Program-made: the position numbers and the translations under genes | Shown here: piece after piece, positions 4,740 to 49,419 of the stretch | Position numbering within the stretch: the stretch's first letter is position 1 | Layout of the letters: each line of letters opens with the position of its first letter | Notes under the pieces: model-generated | Database searches by the model: none | What the model was told of the DNA's origin: nothing | What the model saw: the letters and a program-made list of their open reading frames with translations, nothing else | Assembly (NCBI RefSeq): GCF_036192275.1 | Contig: NZ_CP108088.1 | Location: 5,271,501 to 5,335,500 of the forward strand | DNA length: 64,000 nucleotides | DNA from: Streptomyces sp. NBC_00250 | Lineage (GTDB): Bacteria > Actinomycetota > Actinomycetes > Streptomycetales > Streptomycetaceae | Direction of reading: 5' to 3'

Positions 4740-4754
4740 CTGACGGTACATCAG
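4740..4754. promoter_or_regulatory. CTGACG-N3-CGTCAG operator, copy 1
   Basis: Reads CTGACGGTACATCAG, one mismatch in the arms from the CTGACG-N3-CGTCAG palindrome found ten times in this window. It covers the presumed -10 box of the thiolase gene, five bases from its start codon, which suits repression. Confidence 0.7.
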
Positions 4755-4782
4755 ATTCATTCGATCGGGACCGGCGCGGCTC

Positions 4783-4811
4783 TGGCAACCGGCCCGGCAC
4801 GGGCCTAGCAT
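4783..4811 (+). promoter_or_regulatory. Promoter of the acyl-CoA dehydrogenase
   Basis: TGGCAA (4783-4788) and TAGCAT (4806-4811) are separated by 17 bases and lie ahead of the acyl-CoA dehydrogenase start at 4841. The operator at 4810-4824 begins at the end of the -10 box, where a bound repressor would block initiation. Confidence 0.5.
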
Positions 4812-4824
4812 GACGCACCGTCAG
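4810..4824. promoter_or_regulatory. CTGACG-N3-CGTCAG operator, copy 2
   Basis: Reads ATGACGCACCGTCAG: the right arm is perfect and the left arm has one mismatch. It lies between the -10 box and the ribosome binding site GGAGGG of the acyl-CoA dehydrogenase. Its centre is 70 bases from copy 1 in the same divergent region. Confidence 0.7.
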
Positions 4825-4840
4825 AAACGGAGGGAGCCCC

Positions 4841-6085
4841 ATGGACGCCGCCGACAGCGCAGCGCTCGCCGCCGCCGGAACCGCCTCGCTCACCGCCCCG
4901 CTCACCGAGGAGCAGCAGGAGATCCGCCGCACCCTGCGCGACCTGCTCGCCGAACGGGCCGGGCCGCAGGAGAACCGGGCCGCCACCACCACCCCCCAGG
5001 GATACGACCCCGAGCTCTGGGCCCGGATGTCCGGCACCCTCGGCGTCGCCGGGCTCGCCCTCCCCGAGGAGTACGGAGGAGTCGGCTGCGGGCCCGCCGA
5101 ACTCGCCCTCGCCTGCGAGGAGACCGGCCGCGCCCTCGCCCCCTGCCCGCTCCTCGCCACCAGCGTCCTCGCCGCCCCGCTCCTCGCCGCCCTCGGCACC
5201 CCCGCGCAGCGCGCCGCGCTCCTCCCGCGGCTCGCCGACGGAAGCCTCACCTGCGCCCTCGTCGTCCCCGGCGGCTCGCTCGCCCTCGCCCTCGGCCTCA
5301 CCGGCGACAACACCGGCGAGGAATGGTCCGGCGGCGGCCGCGCGGGCGGCGTGCAGGCACGCGCCGTCGACGGAGGCTGGCGGCTGTACGGGGAGGCCGC
5401 CCAGGTCCTCGACGGACACAGCGCCGGCCTGCTGCTCGTCGCCGCCCACGCCGGCGGCTTCGCCCGCAGCCGCACCCTGCTCTTCCTCGTCCGGACGGAA
5501 CAGGCGGGAGACGCGGTTCCGGGGCTCGTCCGCACCCGGCAGCCCACCCTCGACCTCACCCGCACCCAGGCGACCGTCCAGTTCAGGGACACCGAGGCCG
5601 AACTCCTCGGCGAGGAACCGGTCGATGTCCTCGGCGCGCTCGCCGTCACCGGCCGCACCGCCGCCGTCATGCTGGCCGCCGAGGCCGTCGGCGCCGCCCG
5701 CGAGGCCCTCGAACGGACCGTCGCCCACGTCGCCGCGCGCGAGCAGTTCGGCCGGCCCGTCGGCTCGTTCCAGGCGGTCAAACACCGGCTCGCCGACCTC
5801 TACGTCCAGGTCGAGGCCGCCCGCTCCCTCACCTACTGCGCGGCGCGGGAGCCAGGACCCGGACCCGACAGCGGGCCGCTCGCCCTCGCCCACGCCCTGG
5901 AGGCGCTCCGCGCCACCGCGGGGGAGTCCATCCAGCTCCACGGCGGCATCGGATTCACCTGGGAGCACGAGGCGCACCTCTCCTTCAAACGGGCCGCCTC
6001 CGACGAACTGCTCTTCGGGCCCGTGCGGCGGCTGCGCGCACGGGCGGCGGAACGGACCGGACTCTTCGGAGAGGTGGCGGCGTAG
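4841..6085 (+). CDS. Acyl-CoA dehydrogenase family protein
   Basis: FAD-dependent alpha,beta-dehydrogenation of an acyl-CoA thioester (414 residues, close to the usual 380-410). Order: helical N-domain (LTEEQQEIRRTLRDLLAE), central beta-domain, and C-terminal helical domain with REQFGRPVGSFQAVKHRLAD, the FAD/tetramer signature, and QLHGGIGFTWEHEAHLSFKRA. The central domain is degenerate compared with housekeeping enzymes, as in the alpha2-beta2 dehydrogenases of actinobacterial steroid catabolism, where only one subunit is canonical; no partner subunit gene adjoins it. ATG follows a GGAGGG site by six bases. The next gene starts at the base after its stop, so the two are one transcription unit. 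Operator copy 2 precedes it. The substrate is unknown. Confidence 0.9.
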   Translation: MDAADSAALAAAGTASLTAPLTEEQQEIRRTLRDLLAERAGPQENRAATTTPQGYDPELWARMSGTLGVAGLALPEEYGGVGCGPAELALACEETGRALAPCPLLATSVLAAPLLAALGTPAQRAALLPRLADGSLTCALVVPGGSLALALGLTGDNTGEEWSGGGRAGGVQARAVDGGWRLYGEAAQVLDGHSAGLLLVAAHAGGFARSRTLLFLVRTEQAGDAVPGLVRTRQPTLDLTRTQATVQFRDTEAELLGEEPVDVLGALAVTGRTAAVMLAAEAVGAAREALERTVAHVAAREQFGRPVGSFQAVKHRLADLYVQVEAARSLTYCAAREPGPGPDSGPLALAHALEALRATAGESIQLHGGIGFTWEHEAHLSFKRAASDELLFGPVRRLRARAAERTGLFGEVAA

Positions 6086-6556
6086 ATGCCCGTCGGACGC
6101 AAGCTGATGCAGAAGATGTCCTCGACCCGGACGTTCGCCCGGATCGGCCCGCACGTCGTGCCCGCCATGGACAAGGCCGTGCACCGGCTGACCAGGGGAA
6201 AGGTGCTGCTCAGCGCCCAGATGCTGCCCGGGGTGGTGCTCACCGCCCGGGGTGCGAAGAGCGGGCTGCCCCGGGTCACCCCGCTGGCCTGCATGCCGGA
6301 GACGGACGGGCGCTGGCTGCTCATCGGCTCCAACTTCGGCCGCCCCGGGCACCCGGCGTGGACGGCGAACCTGCTCGCCCATCCGGACGTCGAGGTGAAC
6401 TGGAAGGGGGAGGACGTGCCCGTACGGGCGGAGTTGCTCACCGGGGAGGAGCGGGCGGAGGCCTGGCGGGCGGCCCTGGAGTTCTGGCCGCCGTACGCCA
6501 CGTACCAGGCGCGGATCGACCGCGAGATCCGGCTCTTCCGGCTGACGAGGCGCTGA
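6086..6556 (+). CDS. Nitroreductase/deazaflavin (F420)-dependent oxidoreductase, DDN-like
   Basis: A 156-residue split beta-barrel protein of the deazaflavin-dependent nitroreductase family, which uses reduced F420 for hydride transfer to quinones, enones or aromatics. Visible family blocks are GVVLTARGAKSGLPRVTPL, then GRWLLIGSNFGRPGHPAWTANLL, then HPDVEVNWKGEDVPVRAELL and a C-terminal tail after FWPPYATYQARIDREI. ATG directly follows the TAG of the acyl-CoA dehydrogenase, so it is translationally linked to it. In the same window are three luciferase-like oxidoreductases and FbiC, which makes the F420 chromophore. It probably reduces an intermediate of the same pathway; this is inferred from operon position. 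Confidence 0.85.
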   Translation: MPVGRKLMQKMSSTRTFARIGPHVVPAMDKAVHRLTRGKVLLSAQMLPGVVLTARGAKSGLPRVTPLACMPETDGRWLLIGSNFGRPGHPAWTANLLAHPDVEVNWKGEDVPVRAELLTGEERAEAWRAALEFWPPYATYQARIDREIRLFRLTRR

Positions 6557-6616
6557 CGAGGCGCCGACTAGGCGTTGATCGGGTGCCGAACCGGCACCGA
6601 AGAGCGTTCACTCTCA

Positions 6617-6744: not shown

Positions 6745-6768
6745 CGTAGCTTTTCCCTCATCGGAAAC

Positions 6769-6792: not shown

Positions 6793-6810
6793 CCATGAAG
6801 GAGAAGAACC

Positions 6811-7586: not shown

Positions 7587-8234
7587 CTATCTGGTCGGCT
7601 TCTTGCCGGTGATGCCCAGATGCACCAACAGGGCGAGGTTCGGCTTGAGTTCGGCCTGCTTCACGCCCCAGGTCGTGAAGCCCTTCTGGTGGCCGGCGAC
7701 CGCGGCCAGCATCGCCACGAGCGAGCCGGCCATGGCGGCGGGGCTGACCTCCTTGTCGACCTTGCCCTTGGCCTGGAGCTCCTTCACCGCGTCCGTGAGG
7801 GAGTTGGTGACCGAGTTCAGGATCTTCATGCGGATCTTGTAGAACCGCTTGTCGCCCTCGGCGGCGCCGAGGTCCACGACCCGGAGGATGGCGTCGTGCT
7901 TCCGCCAGAAGTCCAGGAAACCTTCGACGAGTTCCTCGGAGGTCTGCCAACCGGCCTTGCCGACCCAGGAGCGGCCGGAGACCAGCTCGGTCAACCCGGC
8001 GCCCTCCTTGGCCATTTCCTCCGCGATCTCGAGAACCGCTCCCTCGACGTCCGGGAAGTACTGATAGAACGTCGCGGGTGAAGTACCCGCCTTCCGGGCC
8101 ACATCGATGACCTTGACGTCCCGGTAGGGCGAGGAGCTGAGCATCTCACCGAGGCAGTCGAGCAGCTTCTGCCGCGTCGCCTGGCCGCGTCGTCCGGCCA
8201 CGCGGCCGTCGACGGTGCGTACTTGTCCTGTCAT
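7587..8234 (-). CDS. TetR/AcrR-family transcriptional regulator
   Basis: A 215-residue repressor-type protein: basic N-terminal tail GRRGQATRQKLLDCLGEML, helix-turn-helix around residues 40-60 (VIDVARKAGTSPATFYQYFPD) and a helical ligand-binding C-domain. The ATG at 8234 lies inside a CTGTCATGCCGTCAG element (8228-8242), whose right half matches the window-wide CTGACG-N3-CGTCAG operator. This is the only TetR-type gene in the window and it lies 1.5 kb from two copies of the operator, so I infer that it controls that regulon and possibly itself. The ligand is probably an acyl-CoA or pathway intermediate. TetR assignment is firm; the regulon link is a hypothesis. Confidence 0.85.
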   Translation of the reverse strand: MTGQVRTVDGRVAGRRGQATRQKLLDCLGEMLSSSPYRDVKVIDVARKAGTSPATFYQYFPDVEGAVLEIAEEMAKEGAGLTELVSGRSWVGKAGWQTSEELVEGFLDFWRKHDAILRVVDLGAAEGDKRFYKIRMKILNSVTNSLTDAVKELQAKGKVDKEVSPAAMAGSLVAMLAAVAGHQKGFTTWGVKQAELKPNLALLVHLGITGKKPTR

Positions 8235-8242
8235 GCCGTCAG
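8228..8242. promoter_or_regulatory. Degenerate operator overlapping the TetR start codon
   Basis: CTGTCATGCCGTCAG: the right arm CCGTCAG is perfect for the shared operator, the left arm keeps only part. It overlaps the TetR ATG (8234-8232), a position suited to autoregulation, particularly if the mRNA is leaderless. Confidence 0.4.
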
Positions 8243-8553
8243 CTTACCGAGGGGGTGTCGGCGCGCGATTCGGCCGACTGCAAATGGGGTGCACCCCCCG
8301 GCCACCCGTGTTCTGCGAGGTCGGCACGCGTGTCTCCGTGGGAGCGGCACGGACGGGGAGGGGCGGGATCGCGCCACTCCTGGTGCGTGGGGCGGACGAC
8401 CTCGGGATCCCCGTACCCGAATAGGCTTATGAACAGCCTGTGGACAACTTCGGTGGACAACTCAAGTGCCCCAAGGGATTCCACCCGATAAATCGCCTAT
8501 TTGTTCCCATCTTGGGGTATGCGGGTCCGTCCACGCCGTTCTAGCGTGGACAC
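8243..8553. other. Intergenic region between TetR and VOC genes, with paired DnaA-box-like sequences
   Basis: About 310 non-coding bases. TGTGGACAA at 8439-8447 is an exact reverse DnaA box (TTGTCCACA), and GGTGGACAA at 8452-8460 differs by one base. Just before the VOC start the sequence TAGCGT (8542-8547) is followed after six bases by ATG, a leaderless promoter arrangement. Nothing else is recognisable. Confidence 0.5.
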
Positions 8554-12669: not shown

Positions 12670-13251
12670 ATGGTACGCACACGCCTGAAGCTCGCGGCGA
12701 CACTCACGGTGGTGGTGCTGGCGCTGACCGGTTTCCACACCGGCCACGGCAGCAGCAGTGGTGGCGGCAGCGGGAAGAGCAAGAGCGGCAAGAGCCGCGG
12801 CCATTCGGACGACGACTCGGGCGGCGGCTGCTCCAGCGACGAGAAGAGCAACGACGACTACAGCGGCTCGGGCGGCTCCACGGTCACGGCCTCGCCCAGC
12901 CCCACCTCGGTGGCGTCGAAGGTCGACGTCGTCGTGGTCGACTGCGTGAAGTCCGCCCAGAAGAAGCGCAAGGGCAAGCCCGCCCGCAAGGCGGACACCA
13001 CGGCGACCCTGAAGATCGTCTCGCGCGACGCGTCCCCGGGGACGTTCCGGGTCGTCCTGCGGTTCGAGGGCGCCACGGGCCGGCAGGTGGACCTCGGCGA
13101 GGCCTCGGTCGCCGTCGCGGGCTACGAGACGAAGACCTTCGAGGTCGCGATGGAGAACCCGCACTTCGTCGACCGGGTGAAGAACTGCCGGATCGACGAG
13201 GTGCGCGTGCAGGAGACTAGCGCGTCCGGTAGCCCTTCCCCCGCCCCGTGA
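12670..13251 (+). CDS. Secreted Gly/Ser-rich protein of unknown function
   Basis: A 193-residue protein: signal peptide RTRLKLAATLTVVVLALTGFHTG, then a low-complexity segment (residues about 25-80) of Gly, Ser, Lys and Asp, and a compact C-terminal beta-rich domain from about 83 (VDVVVVDCVKSAQ...TATLKIVSRDASPGTFRVVLRFEG...KNCRIDEVRVQE). Cysteines at about 54, 92 and near 179 may form a disulfide outside the cell. This layout, a flexible stalk plus a small domain, recurs in Streptomyces surface proteins. Its last 35 bases overlap the convergent enoyl-CoA hydratase gene (stop at 13217). The family is not recognised. Confidence 0.7.
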   Translation: MVRTRLKLAATLTVVVLALTGFHTGHGSSSGGGSGKSKSGKSRGHSDDDSGGGCSSDEKSNDDYSGSGGSTVTASPSPTSVASKVDVVVVDCVKSAQKKRKGKPARKADTTATLKIVSRDASPGTFRVVLRFEGATGRQVDLGEASVAVAGYETKTFEVAMENPHFVDRVKNCRIDEVRVQETSASGSPSPAP

Positions 13252-13993
13252 ACAGGCCCGTCTGACGCTCCGGCGGCAGGTTCCCCAGGGCGACCAGATG
13301 CGGCGCGTGCGCGAGCGCCTGGGCTCTGGCCGCCTCCTTCACCGACCAGAGCGCCCGGACCGTCCCCTGCACCGCCTCCGTCGGGTGGCCCGCGATGACG
13401 GCGGCCGCCTCGCGCGCGGCGGCCAGCGCACCGCCGGGCGGGGTCAACTCGGAGACGAGCCCCGTCTCGTGCGCCCGCCGGGCCGAGATCCGTTCGGCGC
13501 TGCCCATCAGGGCCATCCGGGCGATTTCCCCGTACGGCATCCGCTGCGCCATGTGAACGGTCTCGAAGGCGCTGACCATGCCGTAGGTGGTGTGCGGGTC
13601 GAAGAAGGTGGCGTCCTCGCCGGCGACCAGGAACTCGGACTCGCCGAGCAGGTAGAACGCCCCGCCGCAGGCCATGCCCTCGACGGCGGCGACGACCGGC
13701 TTCCACAGGTCGTTGGCCTTGGGGCCGATCGTGAGGAGCGGATCGTCGATCGTGTACGGGGACGAGGGCTGCGGCACGTTCCCGACGGCCGCCCGGTCGA
13801 TGCCGGTGCAGAAGGCCCGCCCCCCGGCCCCGGTGACGACGATCGCGCGGACGTCGTCCTCGTACCGGAATCCCCGCCAGACGGCGCTCAGCTCGCGGGC
13901 CATCTCCAGGGTGATCGCGTTGTGCTTCTCGGCCCGGTCGAGGGTGACGACCGCGACCCCGGTCTCCTTGTCCCGCTCGACACGGATGCTCAT
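13217..13993 (-). CDS. Enoyl-CoA hydratase/isomerase (crotonase) family protein
   Basis: Crotonase-fold enzyme of 258 residues that would hydrate or isomerise an enoyl-CoA. Seen: VAVVTLDRAEKHNAITLEMA, the first oxyanion-hole loop GAGGRAFCTGIDRAAVG, the second oxyanion loop AVEGMACGGAFYLLGESEFLVAGEDATF, and PHTTYGMVSAFETVHMAQRMP. In place of the usual catalytic Glu pair, the second active-site region does not show a clear E-x-x-G, so an isomerase or other crotonase chemistry is possible. ATG overlaps the DUF35 stop as ATGA (13990-13993), so it is the last cistron of a thiolase-DUF35-hydratase operon read leftwards from the operators at 15590 and 15617. It overlaps the 3' end of the convergent secreted-protein gene by 35 bases. 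Confidence 0.88.
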   Translation of the reverse strand: MSIRVERDKETGVAVVTLDRAEKHNAITLEMARELSAVWRGFRYEDDVRAIVVTGAGGRAFCTGIDRAAVGNVPQPSSPYTIDDPLLTIGPKANDLWKPVVAAVEGMACGGAFYLLGESEFLVAGEDATFFDPHTTYGMVSAFETVHMAQRMPYGEIARMALMGSAERISARRAHETGLVSELTPPGGALAAAREAAAVIAGHPTEAVQGTVRALWSVKEAARAQALAHAPHLVALGNLPPERQTGLFTGRGKGYRTR

Positions 13994-14415
13994 CCGCGCT
14001 CCAGGAGCCAGCGCGGGACGGTGACGCCGTCGATCTCGGCGAACGCCACCTTCACCGGGGCGCCGATGCGGAGCCGGCTCGGGTCGACCGAGTTCAGGGG
14101 GGCGTCCGGGGCGGCGACCACGTTGCCGACGAGGCGGACGCGGGGGGCGTCGGCGAGTTCGACGAGCACCGCGTTGTACGGGGCCTGGGCGGCGTACTCG
14201 GGCAGGAGGGGCGGGTGGGGGAGCACGTACGACCAGATGCGGCCGCGGCCGGACATCAGGCGCCATTCGCTCGCGAAGGACTGGCAGTGCGGGCAGCAGG
14301 GGCGGGGCGGGAAGCGGAGCTCGCCGCAGTCGGCGCAGCTCTGGACGCGCAGTTCGCCCCGGGCGGCGTACTCCCAGAAGGGGGCACCGTCCTCGTCGGT
14401 GACGGGAGTCAGCAT
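13990..14415 (-). CDS. DUF35 Zn-ribbon/OB-fold acyl-CoA-associated protein
   Basis: A 141-residue partner protein of thiolase-fold enzymes. The N-terminal rubredoxin-like zinc ribbon shows CADCGELRFPPRPCCPHC (two CxxC knuckles, residues about 27-44), followed by the OB-fold domain (GRGRIWSYVLPHPPLLPEYAAQAPYNAVLVEL and later VGNVVAAP). Proteins of this family bind the CoA ester and form a complex with thiolase-like enzymes, for example ChsH2 with the aldolase Ltp2 in cholesterol degradation. Here the gene follows a thiolase-fold gene by only five bases, with its AGGAG site inside that gene's 3' end, and overlaps the hydratase start. It is therefore probably the obligate partner of the 14421-15563 product. 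Confidence 0.9.
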   Translation of the reverse strand: MLTPVTDEDGAPFWEYAARGELRVQSCADCGELRFPPRPCCPHCQSFASEWRLMSGRGRIWSYVLPHPPLLPEYAAQAPYNAVLVELADAPRVRLVGNVVAAPDAPLNSVDPSRLRIGAPVKVAFAEIDGVTVPRWLLERG

Positions 14416-14420
14416 CGGGA

Positions 14421-15563
14421 TCAGCTCCTGAGGAGGATGGCGGAGGTGGGGACTCCCTCGCCCGCCGTGACCAGGCAGGTGGCGGCGTCGGGGACCTGGG
14501 CGGTGGAGGTGCCGCGGAGTTGCTTCACGCCTTCGTTGATGAGGTTGAAGCCGTGGACGTACGCCTCGCTGAGTCCGCCGCCGCCGGTGTTGAGGGGCAG
14601 TCGGCCGCCGATCTCCAGGGCGCCGCCCTCGGTGAAGGCGGCCCCCTCGCCGCGGCCGCAGAAGCCGTAGCCCTCCAGGGAGAGCGGGACGAGCGGGGTG
14701 AAGGCGTCGTAGATCTGGGCGACGTCGACGTCCTGGGGGCCGAAGTCGGCCTGCTTCCAGAGGTGGCGGGCGGCGGTCCAGGCGGGGCCGGAGAGCGGGT
14801 CGTCGTTCCAGTAGTTGACCATGCCGTGGTGCTGGGCGGGCAGGCCCTGGGCGGCGGAGTGGACGTACACGGGCTTCTGCCGGCAGTCGCGGGCCCGCTC
14901 GGCGGAGACGATGACGCAGGCCAGCGCGCCGTCGGTCTCCAGGCAGTTGTCGAAGAGGCAGAGGGGTTCGCTGATCCAGCGGGAGGTCATGTACATCTCG
15001 CGGGTCAGCGGGCGTTCGTACATGATCGCGGCCGGGTTCTGGTTGGCGCGGTTGCGGCAGGCCAGGGCCACGTTGAAGAGGTGGTCGCGGGTGGCGCCGT
15101 ACTCGTGCATGTAGCGGCGGGCGAGCATGCCGATCTCGTCGGCGGGGCGGAGCAGCCCGAAGGGGCGGGTCCACTGGCCGGGGGTGGGCAGCTGGACGGC
15201 GGTGTTCTTCCAGGGGCGGGGGCCGCTGCCCCGCTTCCGGGACCGCCAGGCGACGCCGACGCTCGCCTGTCCGGTGGCGACGGCGGCGGCGAGGTGGCCG
15301 ACGGTGGCGCAGGAACCGCCGCCGCCGTAGCCGACCTTGGAGAAGAAGGTGACGTCGCCGGCGCCGATGGCCTTGGCGACCTCGACCTCGTCGGTCTCCT
15401 CCATCGTGTACGAGGCGAAGCCGTCGACCTCGGAGGGGTCGATGCCGGCGTCGTCGAGGGCGGCGAGGATCGCCCGGCAGGCGAGTGTCTTCTCCGTCTC
15501 GGGGAGTTGTTTGGCGAAGGTGGTCTGACCTATCCCGACGATGGCCGTTGCGTCCTTGAGCAA
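14421..15563 (-). CDS. Thiolase-fold protein (Ltp2-like putative acyl-CoA retro-aldolase)
   Basis: A 380-residue thiolase-superfamily protein. The nucleophile region reads GYGGGGSCATVGHLAAAVATGQA, which resembles the nucleophile-less Ltp2 aldolases rather than biosynthetic or degradative thiolases. Tyrosine-containing blocks IYDAFTPL and GGGLSEAYVHGFN lie where Ltp2 carries its catalytic tyrosines. With the adjoining DUF35 gene it forms the two-gene layout of steroid side-chain retro-aldolases, which cleave a beta-hydroxyacyl-CoA to a ketone or aldehyde plus short acyl-CoA; this function is inferred. The start is TTG at 15563 with GGGGAGG seven bases upstream. First cistron of the operon, with two CTGACG operators (15590, 15617) ahead, shared with the divergent ligase. 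Confidence 0.85.
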   Translation of the reverse strand: MLKDATAIVGIGQTTFAKQLPETEKTLACRAILAALDDAGIDPSEVDGFASYTMEETDEVEVAKAIGAGDVTFFSKVGYGGGGSCATVGHLAAAVATGQASVGVAWRSRKRGSGPRPWKNTAVQLPTPGQWTRPFGLLRPADEIGMLARRYMHEYGATRDHLFNVALACRNRANQNPAAIMYERPLTREMYMTSRWISEPLCLFDNCLETDGALACVIVSAERARDCRQKPVYVHSAAQGLPAQHHGMVNYWNDDPLSGPAWTAARHLWKQADFGPQDVDVAQIYDAFTPLVPLSLEGYGFCGRGEGAAFTEGGALEIGGRLPLNTGGGGLSEAYVHGFNLINEGVKQLRGTSTAQVPDAATCLVTAGEGVPTSAILLRS

Positions 15564-15589: not shown

Positions 15590-15604
15590 CTGACAGCGCG
15601 TCAG
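15590..15604. promoter_or_regulatory. CTGACG-N3-CGTCAG operator, copy 3
   Basis: Reads CTGACAGCGCGTCAG: the right arm is perfect and the left arm has one change. It lies 27 bases ahead of the thiolase/DUF35/hydratase operon start at 15563, in the divergent region shared with the ligase. Confidence 0.75.
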
Positions 15605-15616: not shown

Positions 15617-15631
15617 CTGACGGATAGTCAG
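15617..15631. promoter_or_regulatory. CTGACG-N3-CGTCAG operator, copy 4
   Basis: Reads CTGACGGATAGTCAG: the left arm is perfect and the right arm has one change. Its centre is 27 bases from copy 3, and it lies 25 bases ahead of the ligase ATG at 15656. The closest pair of operators in the window. Confidence 0.75.
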
Positions 15632-15655: not shown

Positions 15656-17197
15656 ATGCGCGGCGACCTGGAGTGGGGCACGATCCCCGGTCTCGTCCGG
15701 GCGGCGGCCGAGCGGTACGGCGCACGGGAGGCGGTCGTCGACGGCCGCAACCGGGTCACGTACGCCGAACTCGACGAACGCGTCGAACGGGCGGCGGCGG
15801 CCTGCCTCGCCACCGGCATACGAACGGGGGACCGGGTCGCGATCTGGGCCCCCAACACGCTCGACTGGATCGTCTCCGCGCTCGGCGCGGTCACCGCCGG
15901 GGCCGTCCTCGTCCCCCTCAACACCCGCTTCAAGGGCACCGAGGCCGCCCACATCCTCCAGCGCTCCCGGGCCCGGCTGCTGTTCGTCACCGGCACCTTC
16001 CTCGGCACCTCGTACGTGGCCTCCCTGCGCCGCTCCGGGGTCGACCTGCCGGACCTGGAGAAGGTCGTGGTCCTCGGCGACACCGCGCCCGAGGAGTGGA
16101 CCACCTGGAAGGAGTTCCTCGCGGAGGGCGACGCGGTCCCGGCCGACCGGGTCCGCGCGCGGGCCGCCGCCATCGACCCCGCGGCCCCCTCCGACATCAT
16201 CTACACCTCCGGCACCACCGGCCGCCCCAAGGGCGCCGTCATCAGCCACGCCCAGAGCCTTCGCTGCTACGCGGTCTGGTCCGCACTCGCCGGCCTCCGC
16301 GAAGGCGACCGCTACCTCGTGGTCAACCCCTTCTTCCACACCTTCGGCTACAAGGCCGGCATCCTCGCCTGTCTGATGCGGGGCGCGGTGATCGTCCCCC
16401 AGTCCGTCTTCACCGTCGACACCGTCCTCGCCAACATCGCCGCCGAACGCGTCACCGTGCTGCCCGGCCCGCCCACCCTCCACCAGTCCCTCCTCGACCA
16501 CCCCGCCCGCCCCGCCCACGACCTGTCCTCGCTCCGCCTCGTCGTGACGGGCGCGGCGGTCGTCCCCCTCCGCCTGGTCGAGCGCCTCCGCACGGAGCTG
16601 GGCGTCGGCACGGTCCTCACCGCGTACGGCCTCTCCGAGGCGAGCGGCATCGTCACCATGTGCCGCCGCGAGGACCCGGCCGAGACGGTGGCCACCACAT
16701 CGGGCCGCGCGATCCCCGGCACCGAGGTCCGGGTCTCGCCGACGGGCGAGGTCCTGGTCCGCGGCCACCACGTGATGAGCGGTTACTTCGAGGACGAGGC
16801 GGAGACGGCGGCGGCGATCGACGAGGCCGGCTGGCTCCACACGGGGGACATCGGCGTCCTCGACGAGAAGGGCAACCTGCGCATCACCGACCGCCTCAAG
16901 GACATGTTCATCGTGGGCGGCTTCAACGCCTACCCCGCCGAGATCGAGCAACTCCTCGGCCTCCACCCCGACATCGCGGACGTCGCCGTCATCGGCGTCC
17001 CCGACCCGAGGCTCGGCGAGGTCGGAAAGGCCTTCGCGGTACGGAGGCCGGGGGCGAGGGTCACGGCGGACGACCTGATCGCCTGGTCGCGACGGGAGAT
17101 GGCGAACTACAAGGTGCCGAGGGAGGTCGAGTTCGTGACGGAACTCCCGAGGAACGCGAGCGGGAAGGTGGTGAAGGGGGAGCTGCGGGGCCGCTGA
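15656..17197 (+). CDS. Acyl-CoA synthetase (AMP-dependent, FadD3/FadD17-like class)
   Basis: ATP-dependent CoA ligase of 513 residues. Seen: RVTYAELDERV, the P-loop DIIYTSGTTGRPKGAVISH, AYGLSEASG, the TGD motif WLHTGDIGVLDEKGNLRITDRLKDMFIVGGFNAYPAEIE and the C-terminal catalytic lysine in ELPRNASGKVVKGEL. It would activate the carboxylate that the divergent thiolase-DUF35-hydratase operon then degrades. The start is uncertain: ATG 15656 has GGAGG five bases upstream, while the in-frame GTG 15644 would use AAGGGGAG; a reading from 15578 is rejected because it would cover both operators. Mid-length ligases of this kind in actinobacteria often act on steroid or terpenoid ring-derived acids, but the substrate cannot be read here. 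Confidence 0.9.
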   Translation: MRGDLEWGTIPGLVRAAAERYGAREAVVDGRNRVTYAELDERVERAAAACLATGIRTGDRVAIWAPNTLDWIVSALGAVTAGAVLVPLNTRFKGTEAAHILQRSRARLLFVTGTFLGTSYVASLRRSGVDLPDLEKVVVLGDTAPEEWTTWKEFLAEGDAVPADRVRARAAAIDPAAPSDIIYTSGTTGRPKGAVISHAQSLRCYAVWSALAGLREGDRYLVVNPFFHTFGYKAGILACLMRGAVIVPQSVFTVDTVLANIAAERVTVLPGPPTLHQSLLDHPARPAHDLSSLRLVVTGAAVVPLRLVERLRTELGVGTVLTAYGLSEASGIVTMCRREDPAETVATTSGRAIPGTEVRVSPTGEVLVRGHHVMSGYFEDEAETAAAIDEAGWLHTGDIGVLDEKGNLRITDRLKDMFIVGGFNAYPAEIEQLLGLHPDIADVAVIGVPDPRLGEVGKAFAVRRPGARVTADDLIAWSRREMANYKVPREVEFVTELPRNASGKVVKGELRGR

Positions 17198-25623: not shown

Positions 25624-25652
25624 CTGACGGGTCGTCAGATCGGCGCTACCGT
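25624..25652 (+). promoter_or_regulatory. Amidohydrolase promoter with CTGACG operator (copy 5) as its -35
   Basis: The perfect palindrome CTGACGGGTCGTCAG (25624-25638) supplies a TTGACG-like hexamer (25624-25629), and TACCGT (25647-25652) follows after exactly 17 bases. ATG at 25660 comes seven bases later, a leaderless arrangement. A bound repressor would mask the -35 box. Confidence 0.75.
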
Positions 25653-25659
25653 GAAAGCC

Positions 25660-26877
25660 ATGGAGACCTTCCCGAAGATCATCTCGGTGGACGACCACAC
25701 CGTGGAGCCCCCGCACGTCTGGCGGGACCGGCTCCCGTCCCGGTACCACGACACCGGACCCCGGATCGTCCGCGCCCCGCTCAAGGAAATGACCTTCCTC
25801 GGCGGAAAGTTCGCCCCCGTCATGGGGGCCAAGGGCGACGACGGCCCGATCGGCGACTGGTGGGTCTACGAGGACCTGCACCGGCCCCTCACCCGGCTCG
25901 ACACCGCCGTCGGCTACGACCGTGACGAGATACGGCTCGAAGTCATCACCTACGAGCAGATGCGGCCCGGCTCCCACTCCGTGCCCGAGCGGCTCGCCGA
26001 CATGGACGTCAACCACGTCCAGTCCGCACTCTGCTTCCCCACCTTCCCGCGCTTCTGCGGGCAGACCTTCACCGAGGCGAGCGACCGCGAGCTGGGGCTG
26101 CTCTGCGTCCGGGCGTACAACGACTGGATGGTGGAGGAGTGGTGCGGGCCCGAGGCCCACGGGCGGCTCATCCCGCTCACCCTCATCCCGCTCTGGGACC
26201 CGGAGCTGGCCGCCGCCGAGGTGCGCCGGAACGCCGCGCGCGGGGTGCGGGCCGTCGCGTTCTCCGAGATCCCCCCGCACCTCGGGCTCCCCTCGGTGCA
26301 CACGGACCACTGGGACCCCTTCTTCCGCGCGTGCGACGAGACCGGCACGGTCATCGCGATGCACATCGGCTCGTCCAGCCGGATGCCGTCGACGTCCGCC
26401 GACGCCCCGCCGGCCGTCGGCTCCACCATCACCTTCGCCAACTGCTGCTTCTCGATGGTCGACTGGCTGATGAGCGGCAAGTTCGAGCGCTTCCCCCACC
26501 TGAAGATCATGTACGCGGAGGGACAGATCGGCTGGATCCCGTACATCCTGGAGCGCGCCGACGTCGTCTGGGAGGAGAACCGGGGCTGGGGCGGGGTCGC
26601 CGAGAAGGTGCTGCGTCCGCCGTCCGAGCTGTTCGCCGGACACGTCTTCGGCTGCTTCTTCGACGACGCGTTCGGGCTCCGCAACCTCGACGCGATCGGG
26701 GCGGGGAACGTCCTCTACGAGACGGACTACCCGCACTCGGACTCGACGTGGCCCAAGTCGCGGGAGGTGGGCGAGGCGCAGATGGGCCATCTGCCGGCGG
26801 ACGTCGTCGAGCGGATCGTGCGCGGCAACGCGATCGATCTGCTGGGCCTGACGCCGGAAGGGCTGTGGCGGCCGTGA
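25660..26877 (+). CDS. Amidohydrolase-2 family metal-dependent hydrolase/decarboxylase
   Basis: A 405-residue TIM-barrel protein of the amidohydrolase-2 (ACMSD-like) family, which carries out metal-dependent hydrolysis or decarboxylation of ring-derived acids. Seen: first strand KIISVDDHTVEPPHVWRDRLP (an HxE variant instead of HxH), LADMDVNHVQSALCFPTFPRFCGQ, GPEAHGRLIPLTLIPLWDPELAAAEVRR, VIAMHIGSSSRMP with the metal-binding His, LKIMYAEGQIGWIPYILERAD and the terminal Asp block YETDYPHSDSTWPKSR. The start is ATG 25660, seven bases after TACCGT and without a ribosome binding site; GTG 25651 would overlap that box. It is the first gene after afsR and the only one downstream of operator copy 5. 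It probably belongs to the inferred CoA/F420 degradation regulon. Confidence 0.88.
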   Translation: METFPKIISVDDHTVEPPHVWRDRLPSRYHDTGPRIVRAPLKEMTFLGGKFAPVMGAKGDDGPIGDWWVYEDLHRPLTRLDTAVGYDRDEIRLEVITYEQMRPGSHSVPERLADMDVNHVQSALCFPTFPRFCGQTFTEASDRELGLLCVRAYNDWMVEEWCGPEAHGRLIPLTLIPLWDPELAAAEVRRNAARGVRAVAFSEIPPHLGLPSVHTDHWDPFFRACDETGTVIAMHIGSSSRMPSTSADAPPAVGSTITFANCCFSMVDWLMSGKFERFPHLKIMYAEGQIGWIPYILERADVVWEENRGWGGVAEKVLRPPSELFAGHVFGCFFDDAFGLRNLDAIGAGNVLYETDYPHSDSTWPKSREVGEAQMGHLPADVVERIVRGNAIDLLGLTPEGLWRP

Positions 26878-27751: not shown

Positions 27752-27766
27752 CTGATGGACTGTCAG
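27752..27766. promoter_or_regulatory. CTGACG-N3-CGTCAG operator, copy 6
   Basis: CTGATGGACTGTCAG, one change per arm from consensus yet still palindromic over CTGA-TCAG. It lies 97 bases upstream of the LLM gene; its centre is 43 bases before copy 7. Confidence 0.6.
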
Positions 27767-27794: not shown

Positions 27795-27809
27795 TTGACG
27801 GTTCGTCAG
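27795..27809. promoter_or_regulatory. CTGACG-N3-CGTCAG operator, copy 7
   Basis: TTGACGGTTCGTCAG: the right arm is perfect and the left arm has C to T, which makes a consensus -35 hexamer TTGACG. It lies 40 bases upstream of the LLM start at 27849, so it likely overlaps the promoter; the -10 box is not clear. Confidence 0.7.
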
Positions 27810-27848: not shown

Positions 27849-28766
27849 ATGGTGGTCTACGGGATGCAGCTGCCGGTCCAGTCGCAGAGCGCGATCTACG
27901 CCGAGCCCTGGGAGGCGGCCGCCGGCCCCGCCGACCTCCTCGCCGTCGCCCGCGCGGCCGAGGCGCACGGCTTCGACTACCTCGCGAGCTGCGACCACGT
28001 CGCCATCCCGCGACGGCTCGCCGAGGCCATGAGCACCGTCTGGTACGACCCGGTCGCCACCCTCTCCTTCCTCGCCGCCGCCACCGAACGCGTCCGGCTG
28101 CTCTCGCACGTCGCCGTCGTCGGGCTGCGGCACCCGCTCGTCACCGCCAAGGCCTACGCGACGCTCGACCACCTCTCCGGCGGCCGGCTCGTCCTCGGGG
28201 TCGGCGCCGGGCACGTACCGGAGGAGTTCGAGGCGCTCGGCGTGGACTTCGCGCGCCGGGGCGCCGTGCTCGACGAGACCATGGACGCGCTGCGGGCCGC
28301 GCTCGGGCCCGAGGAGTACCCCGAGCACACGGGGGAGCGGTTCGCCTTCAAGGAGCTGGGCCAGCTGCCCCGGCCCGCACAGGAGCGCGTCCCGCTCTGG
28401 GTCGGCGGCTCCTCCCCGGCCGCCGTGCGCCGCGCCGCGCTCAAGGGCGACGGCTGGCTCCCGCAGGGCGACCCGCGCGAACAGCTCGCCGTACAGATCC
28501 GGAAGCTGCTGCGGCTGCGCGCCGAGGCGGGGGTCGCGGAGCCGATCACCGTCGGCGCGATCGCCGAGCCGCTGTACATCGGCACTCCCGACTGGCCCGT
28601 CGGCCGGCGCACCCTCAGCGGCCGCCCGGAGGAGATCGCCGCCTCCCTGCGCGCGTACGGGGAGATGGGCGTGCATCAGATCCAGGTCCGGTTCCGCTCC
28701 CGGAGCCGTACCGAACTCACCGACCAGATGGCGGCCTTCGGCACGGAGGTCGCCCCCCACCTCTAG
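27849..28766 (+). CDS. LLM class F420-dependent oxidoreductase (TIM-barrel) 1
   Basis: A 305-residue luciferase-like monooxygenase-family protein of the F420-dependent type. Typical blocks: GFDYLASCDHVAIP, ATERVRLLSHVAVVGLRHPLVTAKAYATLDHLSGGRLVLGVGAGHVPEEFEALGVDF, then VPLWVGGSSPAAVRRAALKGDGWLPQG near the phosphate-binding end of the barrel. The family oxidises or reduces secondary alcohols, ketones or cyclic substrates with F420. ATG at 27849 with AAGGGGG upstream; an apparent longer start at 27795 lies inside the operator and is rejected. It is followed after 11 bases by the SDR, so the two form an operon. Two CTGACG operators precede it. Confidence 0.88.
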   Translation: MVVYGMQLPVQSQSAIYAEPWEAAAGPADLLAVARAAEAHGFDYLASCDHVAIPRRLAEAMSTVWYDPVATLSFLAAATERVRLLSHVAVVGLRHPLVTAKAYATLDHLSGGRLVLGVGAGHVPEEFEALGVDFARRGAVLDETMDALRAALGPEEYPEHTGERFAFKELGQLPRPAQERVPLWVGGSSPAAVRRAALKGDGWLPQGDPREQLAVQIRKLLRLRAEAGVAEPITVGAIAEPLYIGTPDWPVGRRTLSGRPEEIAASLRAYGEMGVHQIQVRFRSRSRTELTDQMAAFGTEVAPHL

Positions 28767-28777
28767 GGAGTACGGAC

Positions 28778-29539
28778 ATGGGCAAGCTCGACGGGCGGGT
28801 CGTCCTCGTCACCGGCGCGGCACGCGGGCAGGGCGAGCAGGAGGCCCGGCTGTTCGCCGGGGAAGGGGCCAGGGTCGTCCTCGCGGACGTCCTCGACGAC
28901 GCCGGCGCGACGCTGGCCAAGGAGCTGGGGGAGGAGCGGGCCGTCTACGTCCATCTGGACGTGACCAGCGAGGACGACTGGGCCGCGGCCGTGGCGCTGG
29001 CCAAGGAGCGGTTCGGGAAGATCGACGGGCTGGTCAACAACGCCGGCATCCTCCGCTTCAACGAGCTGCTCTCCACCCCCCTGGAGGAGTTCCAGGCGAT
29101 CGTCTCCGTCAACCAGACCGGCTGCTTCCTCGGCATACGCACCGTCGCGCCCGAGATCGCGGCGGCCGGCGGCGGCACGATCGTCAACACCGCCTCGTAC
29201 ACGGGGCTGACGGGGATGGCCGGGGTCGGCGCCTACGCCGCCTCCAAGCACGCCGTCCTCGGGCTGACCCGGGTCGCCGCCCTGGAGCTGGCCGCGAAGG
29301 GGATCCGGGTGAACGCCGTCTGCCCGGGGGCGATCGACACCCCCATGAGCAACCCGGAGGGCGTGGACCCGGCGGCCACGGCCGAGCTGTACCGGAAGCT
29401 CGTGCCGCTCGGGCGGATCGGACGCCCGGACGAGGTGGCGGCCCTCGCGCTCTTCCTGACCGGGGACGACTCGGCGTACATCACGGGGCAGCCCTTCGTC
29501 ATCGACGGCGGCTGGCTGGCCGGGGTCAGTCTCTTCTAG
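28778..29539 (+). CDS. SDR family oxidoreductase (hydroxysteroid dehydrogenase/FabG-like)
   Basis: A 253-residue classical short-chain dehydrogenase/reductase. Seen: cofactor loop VVLVTGAARGQGEQEARLFA, acidic residue of VVLADVLDD favouring NAD+, structural NNAG, catalytic S in NTASYTG, and Y153/K157 in GAYAASKHAV, followed by RVNAVCPGAIDTPM and a C-terminal YITGQPFVIDGGW. The pattern is close to the 3-alpha/20-beta hydroxysteroid dehydrogenase branch, so an alcohol/ketone interconversion on a ring or side chain is likely. ATG at 28778 with a GGGAG site seven bases upstream. Second gene of the LLM-SDR operon; just after its stop comes operator copy 8, and then the second LLM gene. Confidence 0.92.
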   Translation: MGKLDGRVVLVTGAARGQGEQEARLFAGEGARVVLADVLDDAGATLAKELGEERAVYVHLDVTSEDDWAAAVALAKERFGKIDGLVNNAGILRFNELLSTPLEEFQAIVSVNQTGCFLGIRTVAPEIAAAGGGTIVNTASYTGLTGMAGVGAYAASKHAVLGLTRVAALELAAKGIRVNAVCPGAIDTPMSNPEGVDPAATAELYRKLVPLGRIGRPDEVAALALFLTGDDSAYITGQPFVIDGGWLAGVSLF

Positions 29540-29545: not shown

Positions 29546-29560
29546 CTGACGACTCGTCAG
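29546..29560. promoter_or_regulatory. CTGACG-N3-CGTCAG operator, copy 8
   Basis: Perfect arms CTGACG and CGTCAG around ACT, seven bases after the SDR stop. With copy 9 it brackets the promoter TTGACG (29564-29569)-17-GACAGT (29587-29592) for the second LLM gene. Confidence 0.8.
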
Positions 29561-29608: not shown

Positions 29609-29623
29609 CTGACGGCACGTCAG
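29609..29623. promoter_or_regulatory. CTGACG-N3-CGTCAG operator, copy 9
   Basis: Perfect arms CTGACG and CGTCAG around GCA, 38 bases upstream of the second LLM start. A truncated half-site (CGTCAG at 29630-29635 region) follows. Confidence 0.8.
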
Positions 29624-29660: not shown

Positions 29661-30785
29661 TTGGAATTCGGGATCTTCGTACAGGGATACGTCGGCAAGC
29701 GCGCCGAGACCGATCCCGAAGCCGAGCACAAGGCCCTCATGGAGGAGACCGAGTACGTCATCCAGGCGGACAGGTCCGGCTTCAAGTACGCCTGGGCCTC
29801 GGAGCACCACTTCCTGGAGGAGTACTCGCACCTCTCCGCCAACGACGTCTACCTGGGCTACCTCGCCCACGCCACCGACCGGATCCACCTCGGCTCCGGC
29901 ATCTTCAACCCCCTCGCCCCCGTCAACCACCCGGTGAAGGTCGCCGAGAAGGTCGCCATGCTCGACCACCTCTCCGGCGGACGCTTCGAGTTCGGCTCCG
30001 GCCGGGGCGCGGGCTCCCACGAGATCCTCGGGTTCATGCCGGGCATCACCGACATGAACTACACGAAGGAGCTGTGGGAGGAGACCATCGCCGAGTTCCC
30101 CAAGATGTGGCTCCAGGACGAGTACGTCGGCTTCCAGGGCAAGCACTGGTCGCTGCCGCCCCGCAAGGTCCTCCCCAAGCCGTACGGGAAGTCCCACCCC
30201 GCCATGTGGTACGCGGCCGGGTCCCCCTCCTCGTACGCCATGGCCGGCAAGAAGGGCCTCGGCGTCCTCGGCTTCAGCGTGCAGAAGGTCTCCGACATGG
30301 AGTGGGTCGTCGAGTCCTACAAGACCGCGATCAAGGAGGCCAAGGCGATCGGCGACTTCGTCAACGACAACGTCATGGTCACCTCGACCGCGATCTGCGC
30401 CGAGACCCACGACAAGGCGGTCGAGATCGCGGTGGGCGGCGGCCTGAACTACCTCCAGTCCCTCCTGTTCCGCTACCACGACACCTTCCCGCGGCCCGAG
30501 GGCATCCCGGAGTGGCCGGAGCTCCTGCCCGAGTACTCGGCCGAGATCATCGAACTCCTCATCCAGGAGGAGCTGATGATCTGCGGAGACCCCTCGGAGG
30601 TCCTCGCCCAGTGCAAGCGGTGGGAGCAGGCCGGGGCCGACCAGCTCTCCTTCGGGCTCCCGATCGGGATCTCGTACGAGGACACGATGAACTCGATCAA
30701 GCTGATCGGTGAGCACGTGATCCCCGAGATCGACACGGACCCGATCCACCGCACCACCCGCTTCCGCCAGTCCGCAGGCTCCTGA
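29661..30785 (+). CDS. LLM class flavin/F420-dependent oxidoreductase 2 (bacterial luciferase-like)
   Basis: A 374-residue luciferase-like monooxygenase-family protein. Blocks: EFGIFVQGYVGKRAE, FKYAWASEHHFLEEYSHLSANDVYLGYLAHATDRIHLGSGIFNPLAPVNHPVKVAEKVAMLDHLSGGRFEFGSGRGAGSHE (the flavin-luciferase type EHH motif), then WYAAGSPSSYAMAGKKGLGVLGFS. The EHH and long insert favour an FMN/O2 monooxygenase, whereas the first LLM looks F420-type, so Baeyer-Villiger-like or Alkane-monooxygenase chemistry is possible. TTG at 29661 is the only start that keeps the N-terminal strand, with GAGGA 14 bases upstream. It is followed by the deacylase and aldehyde dehydrogenase genes in the same direction, the deacylase after a 149-base gap. 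Confidence 0.88.
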   Translation: MEFGIFVQGYVGKRAETDPEAEHKALMEETEYVIQADRSGFKYAWASEHHFLEEYSHLSANDVYLGYLAHATDRIHLGSGIFNPLAPVNHPVKVAEKVAMLDHLSGGRFEFGSGRGAGSHEILGFMPGITDMNYTKELWEETIAEFPKMWLQDEYVGFQGKHWSLPPRKVLPKPYGKSHPAMWYAAGSPSSYAMAGKKGLGVLGFSVQKVSDMEWVVESYKTAIKEAKAIGDFVNDNVMVTSTAICAETHDKAVEIAVGGGLNYLQSLLFRYHDTFPRPEGIPEWPELLPEYSAEIIELLIQEELMICGDPSEVLAQCKRWEQAGADQLSFGLPIGISYEDTMNSIKLIGEHVIPEIDTDPIHRTTRFRQSAGS

Positions 30786-42178: not shown

Positions 42179-42184
42179 CGTTTC

Positions 42185-48417: not shown

Positions 48418-48450
48418 GGAGAGCCCCCTCCAGGGGTCTGGTCCGCCTTG

Positions 48451-48463
48451 TGAACGCCGTTCA
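48451..48463. promoter_or_regulatory. TGAAC-GCC-GTTCA palindrome before the symporter
   Basis: Five-base arms with a three-base centre, extending to GTGAACGCCGTTCAT. It lies 34 bases upstream of the symporter ATG on the minus strand. The arm GTTCA recurs in the third palindrome of this region. Confidence 0.5.
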
Positions 48464-48506
48464 TGGTGTGGCGAGTTGCAAGGCAGGGACAATGCAATGG
48501 AGGGTC

Positions 48507-48543
48507 AAGGGACAGTAAAATCGTTCTGTTTACTGACCCTTGT
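48507..48543. promoter_or_regulatory. Large inverted repeat with 14-base arms
   Basis: CAAGGGACAGTAAA (48507-48520) and TTTACTGACCCTTG (48530-48543) match with one mismatch over 14 bases around a nine-base loop. It is AT-richer than the surroundings. It could be an operator or an end-of-gene hairpin for the SDR whose stop is at 48593. Confidence 0.5.
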
Positions 48544-48558
48544 TCATGTCTATGAACT
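48543..48558. promoter_or_regulatory. GTTCAT-N4-ATGAAC palindrome
   Basis: Perfect six-base arms abut the end of the preceding inverted repeat. The GTTCA arm matches that of the palindrome at 48451-48463, suggesting one regulator with two sites about 95 bases apart. Confidence 0.5.
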
Positions 48559-48592
48559 TGTCTCGGGTGGATTCAGGGGGCCCCGCTGGGCC

Positions 48593-49375
48593 TCATCGCA
48601 TCAGCTCACCCGCGTTGACCAGCAGCGACTGTCCCGTGATCGCCCGCGCCCGGTCCGAGGCGAGGAAGGCCGCCGCCTCCGCCACGTCCCCGTCCGTCGC
48701 CAGCTCCGGCAGCGCCATCCGCTCGGTGAGCCGAGCGAGCACCTCCGCCTCCGGGACCTTCTCGGTGTGCGCGGTGAACTGGACGAAGGCCTGCACCGGC
48801 GGACCCCACATCCAGCCGGGCAGCACGGTGTTGACCCGGATGCGGTGCGGTCCGAGCTCGCGCGCGAGGGAGTACATCGCCGAGGTCAGCGCCCCCTTCG
48901 AGGCCGCGTACGCCGCCTGCCGCACCTGCGTGGGCGCGGCCACCGCCGACTGCGTACCGATCAGGACCACCGAACCCCCGCGCTCCTTGAGCGCCGGCAG
49001 GCAGGCGCGGGTCATGCGGAGGGTCCCGAGCAGATTGACGTCGAGCACCCCCTGCCAGGTCGCGAAGTCGGCGTCTTCGAGGCCGCCGAAGCAGGAGTCC
49101 CAGGCGGCGACGTGGACCACCGCGTCGATCCCGCCGAAGCGCTCGGTCGCGAGGCCGGCGAGGGCCTCGCACTGCTCCTCGTCGGTGATGTCGGTGGCCC
49201 GGTAGGCGGTACGGCGCCCCTCCGGGTCGATCGCGGCGGCGGACTTGGCGAGGTTGGCCTCGGTGCGGGCCCCGAGGACCGCGTTGCCCCCGTCCCGTAC
49301 GACCGTCTCGGCGATGCGGTGGCCGAGCCCGGCGCCGACACCCGACACCACGACCGTCTTCCCCTGGAGCAGCAT
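48593..49375 (-). CDS. SDR family oxidoreductase 2
   Basis: A 260-residue short-chain dehydrogenase. Seen: VVVSGVGAGLGHRIAETVV (cofactor loop GxxxGxG), VVHVAAW instead of the usual NNAG, catalytic S in GSVVLIGTQSA, and Y-x3-K in AAYAASKGAL, followed by RVNTVLPGWMWGP. The VAA variant of NNAG is unusual but occurs in related enzymes. ATG 49375 follows GAGAGGGG. It is divergent from an unknown-protein gene with operator copy 10 (49405-49419) between, so it is likely part of the inferred regulon. Confidence 0.9.
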   Translation of the reverse strand: MLLQGKTVVVSGVGAGLGHRIAETVVRDGGNAVLGARTEANLAKSAAAIDPEGRRTAYRATDITDEEQCEALAGLATERFGGIDAVVHVAAWDSCFGGLEDADFATWQGVLDVNLLGTLRMTRACLPALKERGGSVVLIGTQSAVAAPTQVRQAAYAASKGALTSAMYSLARELGPHRIRVNTVLPGWMWGPPVQAFVQFTAHTEKVPEAEVLARLTERMALPELATDGDVAEAAAFLASDRARAITGQSLLVNAGELMR

Positions 49376-49404
49376 CCGGACCCCTCTCAAGCCTGGCCAA
49401 CTAT

Positions 49405-49419
49405 CTGACGGTCCGTCAG
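49405..49419. promoter_or_regulatory. CTGACG-N3-CGTCAG operator, copy 10
   Basis: CTGACGGTCCGTCAG: a perfect 15-base palindrome, including the two flanking positions next to the centre. It lies 29 bases ahead of the SDR (minus strand) and 50 bases ahead of the gene at 49470 (plus strand). Confidence 0.8.

Follow-up and report, generated by a model that had tools for sequence, protein, structure and literature searches.

Copies of a 15-bp palindrome, CTGACG-N3-CGTCAG, lie before several groups of enzyme genes in the 64-kb stretch of Streptomyces DNA analysed here (the window). In the first group, a thiolase-fold protein (3560..4735, minus strand; Pfam Thiolase_C_1) diverges from an acyl-CoA dehydrogenase (4841..6085, plus; best NCBIfam match IpdE2, below cut-off), which is adjoined by a member of the F420H2-dependent quinone reductase family (6086..6556, plus; Pfam); one-mismatch copies lie at 4740..4754 (CTGACGGTACATCAG) and 4810..4824 (ATGACGCACCGTCAG), both on the plus strand. 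A second divergon, with one-mismatch copies at 15590..15604 and 15617..15631 (both plus), pairs a lipid-transfer/thiolase protein of the Ltp2 type (14421..15563, minus; NCBIfam PRK07855 above cut-off; PDB 6ok1) with an acyl-CoA ligase of the FadD3 family (15656..17197, plus; NCBIfam above cut-off; start estimated). Beyond the Ltp2 gene lie a DUF35/ChsH2-type partner (13990..14415, minus; OB_ChsH2_C and zf-ChsH2 in ORF 13990-15174) and an enoyl-CoA hydratase (13217..13993, minus; Pfam ECH_1 on ORF 13217-14266), the starts of both being estimated from the reading frame. The next three groups are all on the plus strand: an exact copy at 25624..25638 precedes an amidohydrolase-family (PF04909) gene (25651..26877); copies at 27752..27766 (weak, two mismatches) and 27795..27809 (one mismatch) precede an operon of an LLM F420-type oxidoreductase (27849..28766; TIGR03619 above cut-off; start estimated) and an SDR (28763..29539; Pfam); and two exact copies, at 29546..29560 and, with flanking T..A, at 29609..29623, precede a second LLM-class oxidoreductase, LLM 2 (29661..30785; Pfam). 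The last copy, again exact with flanking T..A (49405..49419, plus), separates an SDR (48593..49375, minus; Pfam; start estimated from start candidates) from a protein of about 280 aa (49470..50315, plus; start estimated) that had no Pfam, NCBIfam or PDB match at the thresholds used.

Close to the first group lies the gene for a TetR-family regulator (7587..8234, minus), which we propose as the owner of the operator. It carries the Pfam domains TetR_N (PF00440, 26.1 bits against a cut-off of 24) and TetR_C_38 (245 bits), and its structure model is all-helical and EthR-like (pLDDT 88.5). A degenerate copy of the palindrome with two mismatches (CTGACGGCATGACAG on the minus strand, 8228..8242) covers its start codon. 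Another TetR gene lies just to the left of the window, at 5270345.

The first-pass annotation had described ten copies of the palindrome, none of them inside a gene. All ten coordinates hold a copy, but only four are exact, five having one mismatch and one having two. Five sites (15590, 15617, 27752, 27795 and 49405) lie within the longest ORFs as called, in their 5' part and ahead of the likely start, so that the second statement stands once those ORFs are trimmed and starts are judged from the remaining candidates. In 100 dinucleotide-preserving shuffles of the window, exact copies averaged 0.01 (4 observed) and copies with at most one mismatch 0.64, with a largest value of 3 (9 observed). 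At up to two mismatches, 13 copies were found against 7.9 expected, a count reached by 10 of the 100 shuffles, and the copy at 27752 therefore carries no weight alone; further two-mismatch matches lie at 8228, 13262 and 52415.

Related Streptomyces keep the palindrome before the same genes. Across 80 Streptomyces loci, a site was found upstream of 63/63 thiolase, 53/53 acyl-CoA dehydrogenase (two or more sites in 41), 48/48 Ltp2 and 47/47 ligase orthologs, giving 211/211 in total, counts which overlap because divergent gene pairs share sites. None preceded the 103 control genes, which bears out the claim that neighbouring genes lack the palindrome for the four neighbours whose orthologs made up this set, a set without afsR, fbiC and the permease. 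The reversed pattern occurred once before any of these orthologs or controls, ahead of afsK. A 17-bp form that includes the flanks was found at up to one mismatch in 40/41 related genomes, and the 25 of these in the same genus held 1-32 copies (median 18) against 0-1 for the reversed form.

At two further targets, conservation has exceptions. Amidohydrolase orthologs (49-71% identity) had a site in 10/10 TetR-positive and 0/7 TetR-negative genomes, a count that leaves out G153 (TetR present, 49% ortholog, no site) and G171 (ortholog with a site, no TetR detected); with these two added the association is weaker (p = 0.001). For LLM 2, 17 of 30 orthologs had a site, which was missing from the closest copies in family f3 (8/8) and present at second copies (7/7). 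In one genome (G133) a relative of the 280-aa protein (58%) adjoins a site together with LLM and NMO genes.

On the chromosome as a whole, we found 19 exact copies, only four of them in the window, and a regulon confined to 45 kb can no longer be upheld. The model of a single pathway over those 45 kb was likewise rejected, as the sites spread genome-wide and the regulon is common to several families. At up to one mismatch the palindrome matches 120 times against 34 for the reversed pattern, and the 17-bp form at up to two mismatches 74 times against 9; the equal frequency in unrelated genes that would have spoken against a regulon was absent. Outside the window, 10 of the 15 exact copies adjoin enzymes similar to those inside it, four have no obvious target and one (L021) lies within an unrelated domain. 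Six sites were called deep in a gene; with starts assigned by judgement, five of these precede the recognised domain, the sixth being L021. In all, the palindrome occupies some 20 promoter regions of degradation-type genes, whose products are, as first suggested, mostly of CoA-ester and F420/flavin chemistry.

The degenerate copy over the TetR start codon is present at 80/80 Streptomyces loci, and in a looser form at 51/58 TetR loci from several families, the seven misses being four f18 loci, two f16 loci in which the site is placed differently, and L182. In five f3 loci it is kept despite different surrounding upstream DNA. It lies across a probable -10 box as well as the start codon (TAAGCTGACGGCATG). 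We read it as a likely autoregulatory site of the TetR protein. One f16 genome (G098) has an exact core site immediately before its TetR gene, and the f3 TetR orthologs, for two of which identity was measured (65-66%), sit within a row of palindromes that also includes some of the gene pairs seen here. Elsewhere, other TetR genes also occur near sites, one beside an exact site (L017) and others within a few kb; these, and the one to the left of the window, are less favoured candidates for the regulator.

Sites and TetR gene also occur together across genomes. Among 246 genomes, with the anomalous family f15 left out, at least four sites were found in 29/38 TetR carriers and 1/203 non-carriers; with the genus of the window left out as well, the figures are 10/14 and 1/203, and with all families counted, the carriers number 34/43. 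The other nine of the 38 carriers fell short of four sites, and five of these nine are Streptomyces in which a single site was found; G009 is another carrier with few. G065 was counted as a carrier although its TetR match contains one TGA.

Because the palindrome also precedes relatives of these genes in those other actinobacterial families where this regulator gene is found, it is likely to be the docking site of the TetR protein. Taken together, these data lead us to read it as the operator of the window TetR, a predicted repressor of catabolic genes of CoA-ester and F420/flavin chemistry across the whole genome, a reading to which we give a probability of about 0.8. The earlier proposal of one repressor holds for one operator and one likely regulator, encoded by the TetR gene that the proposal had singled out for its tests; repression itself is suggested by the positions of the sites.

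It is unlikely that a different transcription factor reads the palindrome and merely travels with the TetR gene, whose start-codon element would then be its target. With 150 of 333 candidates scored, at least 132 TetR_N matches were counted in the genome, our cross-genome profiling covered this TetR only, and a two-mismatch copy at the TetR start fits a plain target as well as an autoregulatory site. Moreover, two genomes have sites with no TetR detected: G171, with five, and G151, with one beside a matching LLM gene. Both, however, are incomplete (93%), and co-occurrence across several families, the f3 TetR genes within site clusters and the exact promoter site of the f16 TetR gene argue for the TetR protein itself.

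That this protein acts as an activator or dual regulator is about as improbable. SAV3818, which we take to be its ortholog, is the subject of a study whose title reportedly has its overexpression stimulating antibiotic production. A site over the likely -10 box and start codon, however, is placed as for a blocker, and most characterised TetR proteins repress, according to the available text of one report (PMC12093943).

If the palindrome were a repeat of a general kind (a hairpin, say, or an element of genome architecture) that is only incidentally close to catabolic genes, this would fit the 51-177 copies away from regulon genes in f15, but the idea is very improbable given the contrast between Streptomyces targets and controls and the restriction of amidohydrolase sites to TetR-carrying genomes (G171 excepted), and is disfavoured outside f15. 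The f15 genomes also carry a TetR relative at 43-47%. When 40 f15 loci were labelled by tblastn, with two TetR loci as positive control, none of the labelled relatives of regulon genes had a site in the 300 bp upstream; at L225 an LLM relative begins 540 bp beyond a site, with a small gene in between. By the share of sites deep in genes, as found by simple calling of gene positions, f15 did not stand apart (6/21 in our own genome, 5/18 in f3, 9/28 in G110 and 9/22 in G051), and a half-site excess seemed not to explain the copies at site-centred f15 loci.

On the reading of the TetR protein as repressor, a dimer would bind the palindrome and repress the catabolic set, limiting its own synthesis through the degenerate site, until it is released from the DNA by an intermediate of the pathway, probably an acyl-CoA. 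FadD3-type ligases would activate the substrate acid, LLM, FMO and PF04909 enzymes would oxidise it, and acyl-CoA dehydrogenase, hydratase and an aldol-type cleavage by Ltp/DUF35 proteins would shorten it. The product of the PF04909 gene may, instead of the hydrolase first proposed, be a dinuclear oxygenase of the PtmU3/AibH2 type: its best PDB matches are DitZ (E 2e-56) and PtmU3 (2e-34), and it shares with PtmU3 the residues H-x2-E, H, E and D-x2-H, presumably metal ligands. The enzymes are similar to those of the KstR/KstR2 regulons and to diterpenoid enzymes; our guess for the substrate is a carboxylic acid with a polycyclic, terpenoid- or steroid-like skeleton. What the sequence itself shows is the sites, where they lie, that they are conserved ahead of the same genes, and that they occur together with this TetR; dimer binding, repression rather than activation, the acyl-CoA ligand and the substrate are steps that go beyond it.

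To our knowledge, most TetR-type regulators have no known targets; here, one such orphan, encoded next to afsK and afsR, which regulate antibiotic production, gains a candidate operator, a putative autoregulatory site and a set of promoters as its likely targets. From these targets emerges the outline of a catabolic pathway that several actinobacterial families have kept, and whose substrate is named nowhere in the literature we found.

Among known regulators, EthR of Mycobacterium tuberculosis is the closest solved fold to the TetR protein (TM-score 0.86-0.87 on the target, 17-18% identity). EthR controls ethA, a flavin monooxygenase gene, through an operator that is different from and larger than the palindrome. 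For two TetR proteins of Streptomyces, Sco4385 and SAV576, consensus sites have been reported, and sco4385 lies beside acyl-CoA genes. The SAV576 site (CCRTACRVYGTATGS; PMC3742746, in the text available) is unlike the operator here, and for the 23-bp Sco4385 consensus, excerpts of its report describe matches in S. coelicolor that all have two mismatches and all fall within coding regions (PMC12093943). The literal motif appeared in no paper that we found, and no assignment was seen among the broader matches listed.

From its position and family, we take SCO4421 of S. coelicolor, which also lies beside the kinase gene afsK, to be the ortholog of the window TetR. In the available part of one study, SCO4421 is under developmental control, with expression in spores and a lower level in a whiA mutant, its deletion gave no phenotype, which counts against the TetR explanation, and no targets are named (PMC3878966). 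More speculatively, and doubtfully for now, the TetR protein could act like KstR as the master switch for another actinobacterial catabolism, one of polycyclic isoprenoids that is nearly genus-wide and distinct from cholesterol degradation, with PF04909 proteins as dinuclear oxygenases on CoA esters. As its gene has a conserved promoter of its own and, in S. coelicolor, is expressed in spores, one of the organism's own terpenoids, recycled in development, could even be the substrate.

Such a pathway would be outlined in a genus whose genomes mostly have no recognised steroid pathway, 55 of 57 lacking one according to the accessible text of a survey (PMC4810484). The KstR core operator (TnnAACnnGTTnnA; PMC1995591, as excerpted) differs from the one here (TCTGACGNNNCGTCAGA), and a search of the TetR protein against PDB (E up to 0.001) returned no match named KstR or KstR2, several being named only as TetR-family. 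In the cholesterol regulons of Mycobacterium and Rhodococcus, too, a TetR-type regulator has a short palindrome upstream of its own gene and of many Ltp, FadE, FadD, hydratase and LLM genes at scattered places; in the passages available, ltp2-4 are under the control of KstR, for which Rv3520c also has a site, and fadD3 is under that of KstR2 (PMC1995591, PMC5380842). By site position, Ltp, FadD3, FadE and LLM-type targets recur here, and the Ltp2-type protein, the FadD3-family ligase, a second lipid-transfer protein and an Rv3520c-type LLM pass their NCBIfam cut-offs.

The palindrome CTGACG-N3-CGTCAG (with one flanking base on each side, TCTGACGNNNCGTCAGA) was found at all ten window positions listed by the first-pass annotation, but it is exact in only 4 of them; 5 copies carry one mismatch and 1 (27752) carries two. 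Compared with 100 shuffles, the window holds 4 exact copies (0.01 expected) and 9 with at most one mismatch (0.64 expected), while allowing two mismatches gives only a slight excess (13 versus 7.9 expected), so the copy at 27752 is credible solely through its position. The regulon is not limited to some 45 kb, as had been proposed, but is genome-wide. The window spans C1:5271501-5335500 of the 9.27-Mb genome, which contains 19 exact palindromes, 15 of them beyond the window, and 120 with at most one mismatch; reading the pattern backwards (the reversed control) gives 34. For the 17-bp form with up to two mismatches the numbers are 74 and 9. By our own count, 10 of the 15 outside copies adjoin catabolic-type genes: an LLM gene (twice), a flavin monooxygenase, a PF04909 gene, a MaoC hydratase, a ferredoxin reductase, a DUF7064-phosphotransferase, a lipid-transfer thiolase, an AMP-ligase and a DapB-like/unknown pair. 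The other 5 comprise one within a nitrite/sulfite-reductase-like domain and four whose target is unclear. Further genes stand beside near-exact copies: an SDR/cyclase pair, an ATP-grasp CoA ligase, an NMO, another SDR, and an acyl-CoA dehydrogenase set that includes a ChsH2-type protein. On the second contig (112 kb; locus L029), an exact palindrome stands near the contig end at C2:110414; the gene that starts about 100 bp further on encodes 226 aa and has no Pfam match.

We assign the palindrome to the TetR-family gene at 7587-8234 (minus strand; TetR_N and TetR_C_38 domains, EthR-like fold), and from sequence comparison put the probability of this operator-regulator pairing at about 0.8; repression, ligand and substrate we infer. 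Among 246 genomes of the class, at least four sites were present in 34/43 carriers of a TetR ortholog (E <=1e-30) versus 1/203 non-carriers. This held in 29/38 carriers with family f15 left out, and in 10/14 with f15 and Streptomyces left out. In family f16, site numbers range from 11 to 20 among the five carriers, against 0, 0 and 1 in the three non-carriers. The sole non-carrier with at least four sites, G171 (five; genome 93% complete), has them before relatives of an LLM and the PF04909 gene in the 2 site regions examined. Five Streptomyces carriers with a single site each speak against a simple co-occurrence rule, and G009 retains the TetR along with the start-codon element but has one site away from that locus, so the regulon can shrink. 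The TetR gene coexists with just one strong site in the Streptomyces genomes G009, G114, G154, G172, G251 and G260, where the regulon seems to have been lost while the TetR stayed. In five f15 genomes the palindrome recurs 51-177 times (reversed control, 0), and in 40 loci (L208-L246, genomes G110 and G051) these copies did not lie directly before relatives of regulon genes.

The TetR start codon is embedded in CTGACGGCATGACAG, and CTGACG-N-CATGACAG occurs there in 80/80 Streptomyces loci; a slightly looser element was found in 51/58 TetR loci, pooled from two sets whose species may overlap. Five loci of family f3 keep TAAACTGAC..CATGACAG though the rest of their upstream DNA differs. In f3, TetR orthologs (65-66% identical in the two compared) stand inside a palindrome chain whose genes include an ATP-grasp ligase and the SDR/cyclase pair named above. 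A TAAGCT/TAAACT box 6 bases 5' of the ATG suggests a leaderless transcript. The Streptomyces TetR promoter (window 8235-8286) also contains a strongly conserved stretch (CATTTGCAGTCGGCCGAATCGCGC), absent from the five f3 loci and possibly the site of another regulator. SCO4421, a TetR close to afsK, is described as expressed in spores and reduced in a whiA mutant, and its deletion is reported to give no phenotype (PMC3878966).

Across 80 Streptomyces loci (orthologs of at least 60% identity, 250 bp upstream, at most one core mismatch), a site preceded 63/63 thiolase, 53/53 acyl-CoA dehydrogenase, 48/48 Ltp2 and 47/47 FadD3-type ligase orthologs, counts that are not independent because divergent neighbours have sites in common. 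None was found before 26 hydratase orthologs; the hydratase gene is co-directional with Ltp2 and DUF35 and lies 3' of them. The suggestion that neighbours of other function lack the palindrome was borne out for the four neighbours scanned as controls, at 0/103 genes (FAD enzyme 6, DUF4097 2, VOC protein 23, afsK 72). The reversed pattern matched once in all these upstream regions, before afsK, and the loci in total gave 251 sites versus 10 reversed.

Relatives of the PF04909 gene (25651-26877), sought in 54 chosen genomes, were present in 33, and 30 loci, one per genome, were scanned over 400 bp upstream. The 11 best-scoring loci, which come from G171 and ten TetR carriers at 57-71% identity, all had a site (11/11); it was found in none of the other 19, including seven TetR-negative genomes at 49-57% identity and the best copies (39-49% identical) of carriers G153, G057, G051 and G110; the reversed pattern gave 0/30. 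Comparing 10/10 TetR-positive with 0/7 TetR-negative loci gives Fisher p = 5e-5, or 0.001 with G153 and G171 counted as contrary cases. The TetR match of carrier G065 contains one TGA. In f18 genomes PF04909 is greatly expanded, with as many as 21 matches in a single genome (E <=1e-60), and the scan covered one copy per genome. For LLM 2 (29661-30785), 17/30 relatives had a site (reversed 0/30); in f3 the closest copies had none (0/8) and the second copies 7/7.

NCBIfam cut-offs are exceeded by two lipid-transfer proteins, one of them of Ltp2 type, by a FadD3-family ligase and by an Rv3520c-type F420 LLM; a DUF35/ChsH2 gene follows Ltp2. The nearest relatives of the PF04909 protein are DitZ and PtmU3, the latter described as a member of the amidohydrolase-related dinuclear oxygenases. 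The PtmU3 substrate is a diterpenoid CoA ester. KstR is reported to control ltp2-4, with a site at Rv3520c, and KstR2 to control fadD3 (PMC1995591, PMC5380842). Given these likenesses, our guess by analogy is that the substrate may be a polycyclic terpenoid- or steroid-like acid; a recognised steroid pathway is reported missing from 55/57 Streptomyces genomes (PMC4810484). An F420H2-quinone-reductase-family gene (6086-6556) abuts the acyl-CoA dehydrogenase gene; at 42185-44767 the window also encodes a radical-SAM/CofH protein, which we take to be fbiC of F420 synthesis. The protein of about 280 aa at 49470-50315 has no Pfam or PDB match and is 58% conserved in another family (G133), where its relative (L258) lies next to a site and to LLM and NMO genes.

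Among the listed matches in the open-licence literature, we found no paper assigning the palindrome. Because its operator differs from that of KstR, and none of its PDB hits (E up to 0.001) carries the name KstR or KstR2, several being labelled just as TetR-family, we do not file this TetR as KstR; the system would nonetheless work likewise.
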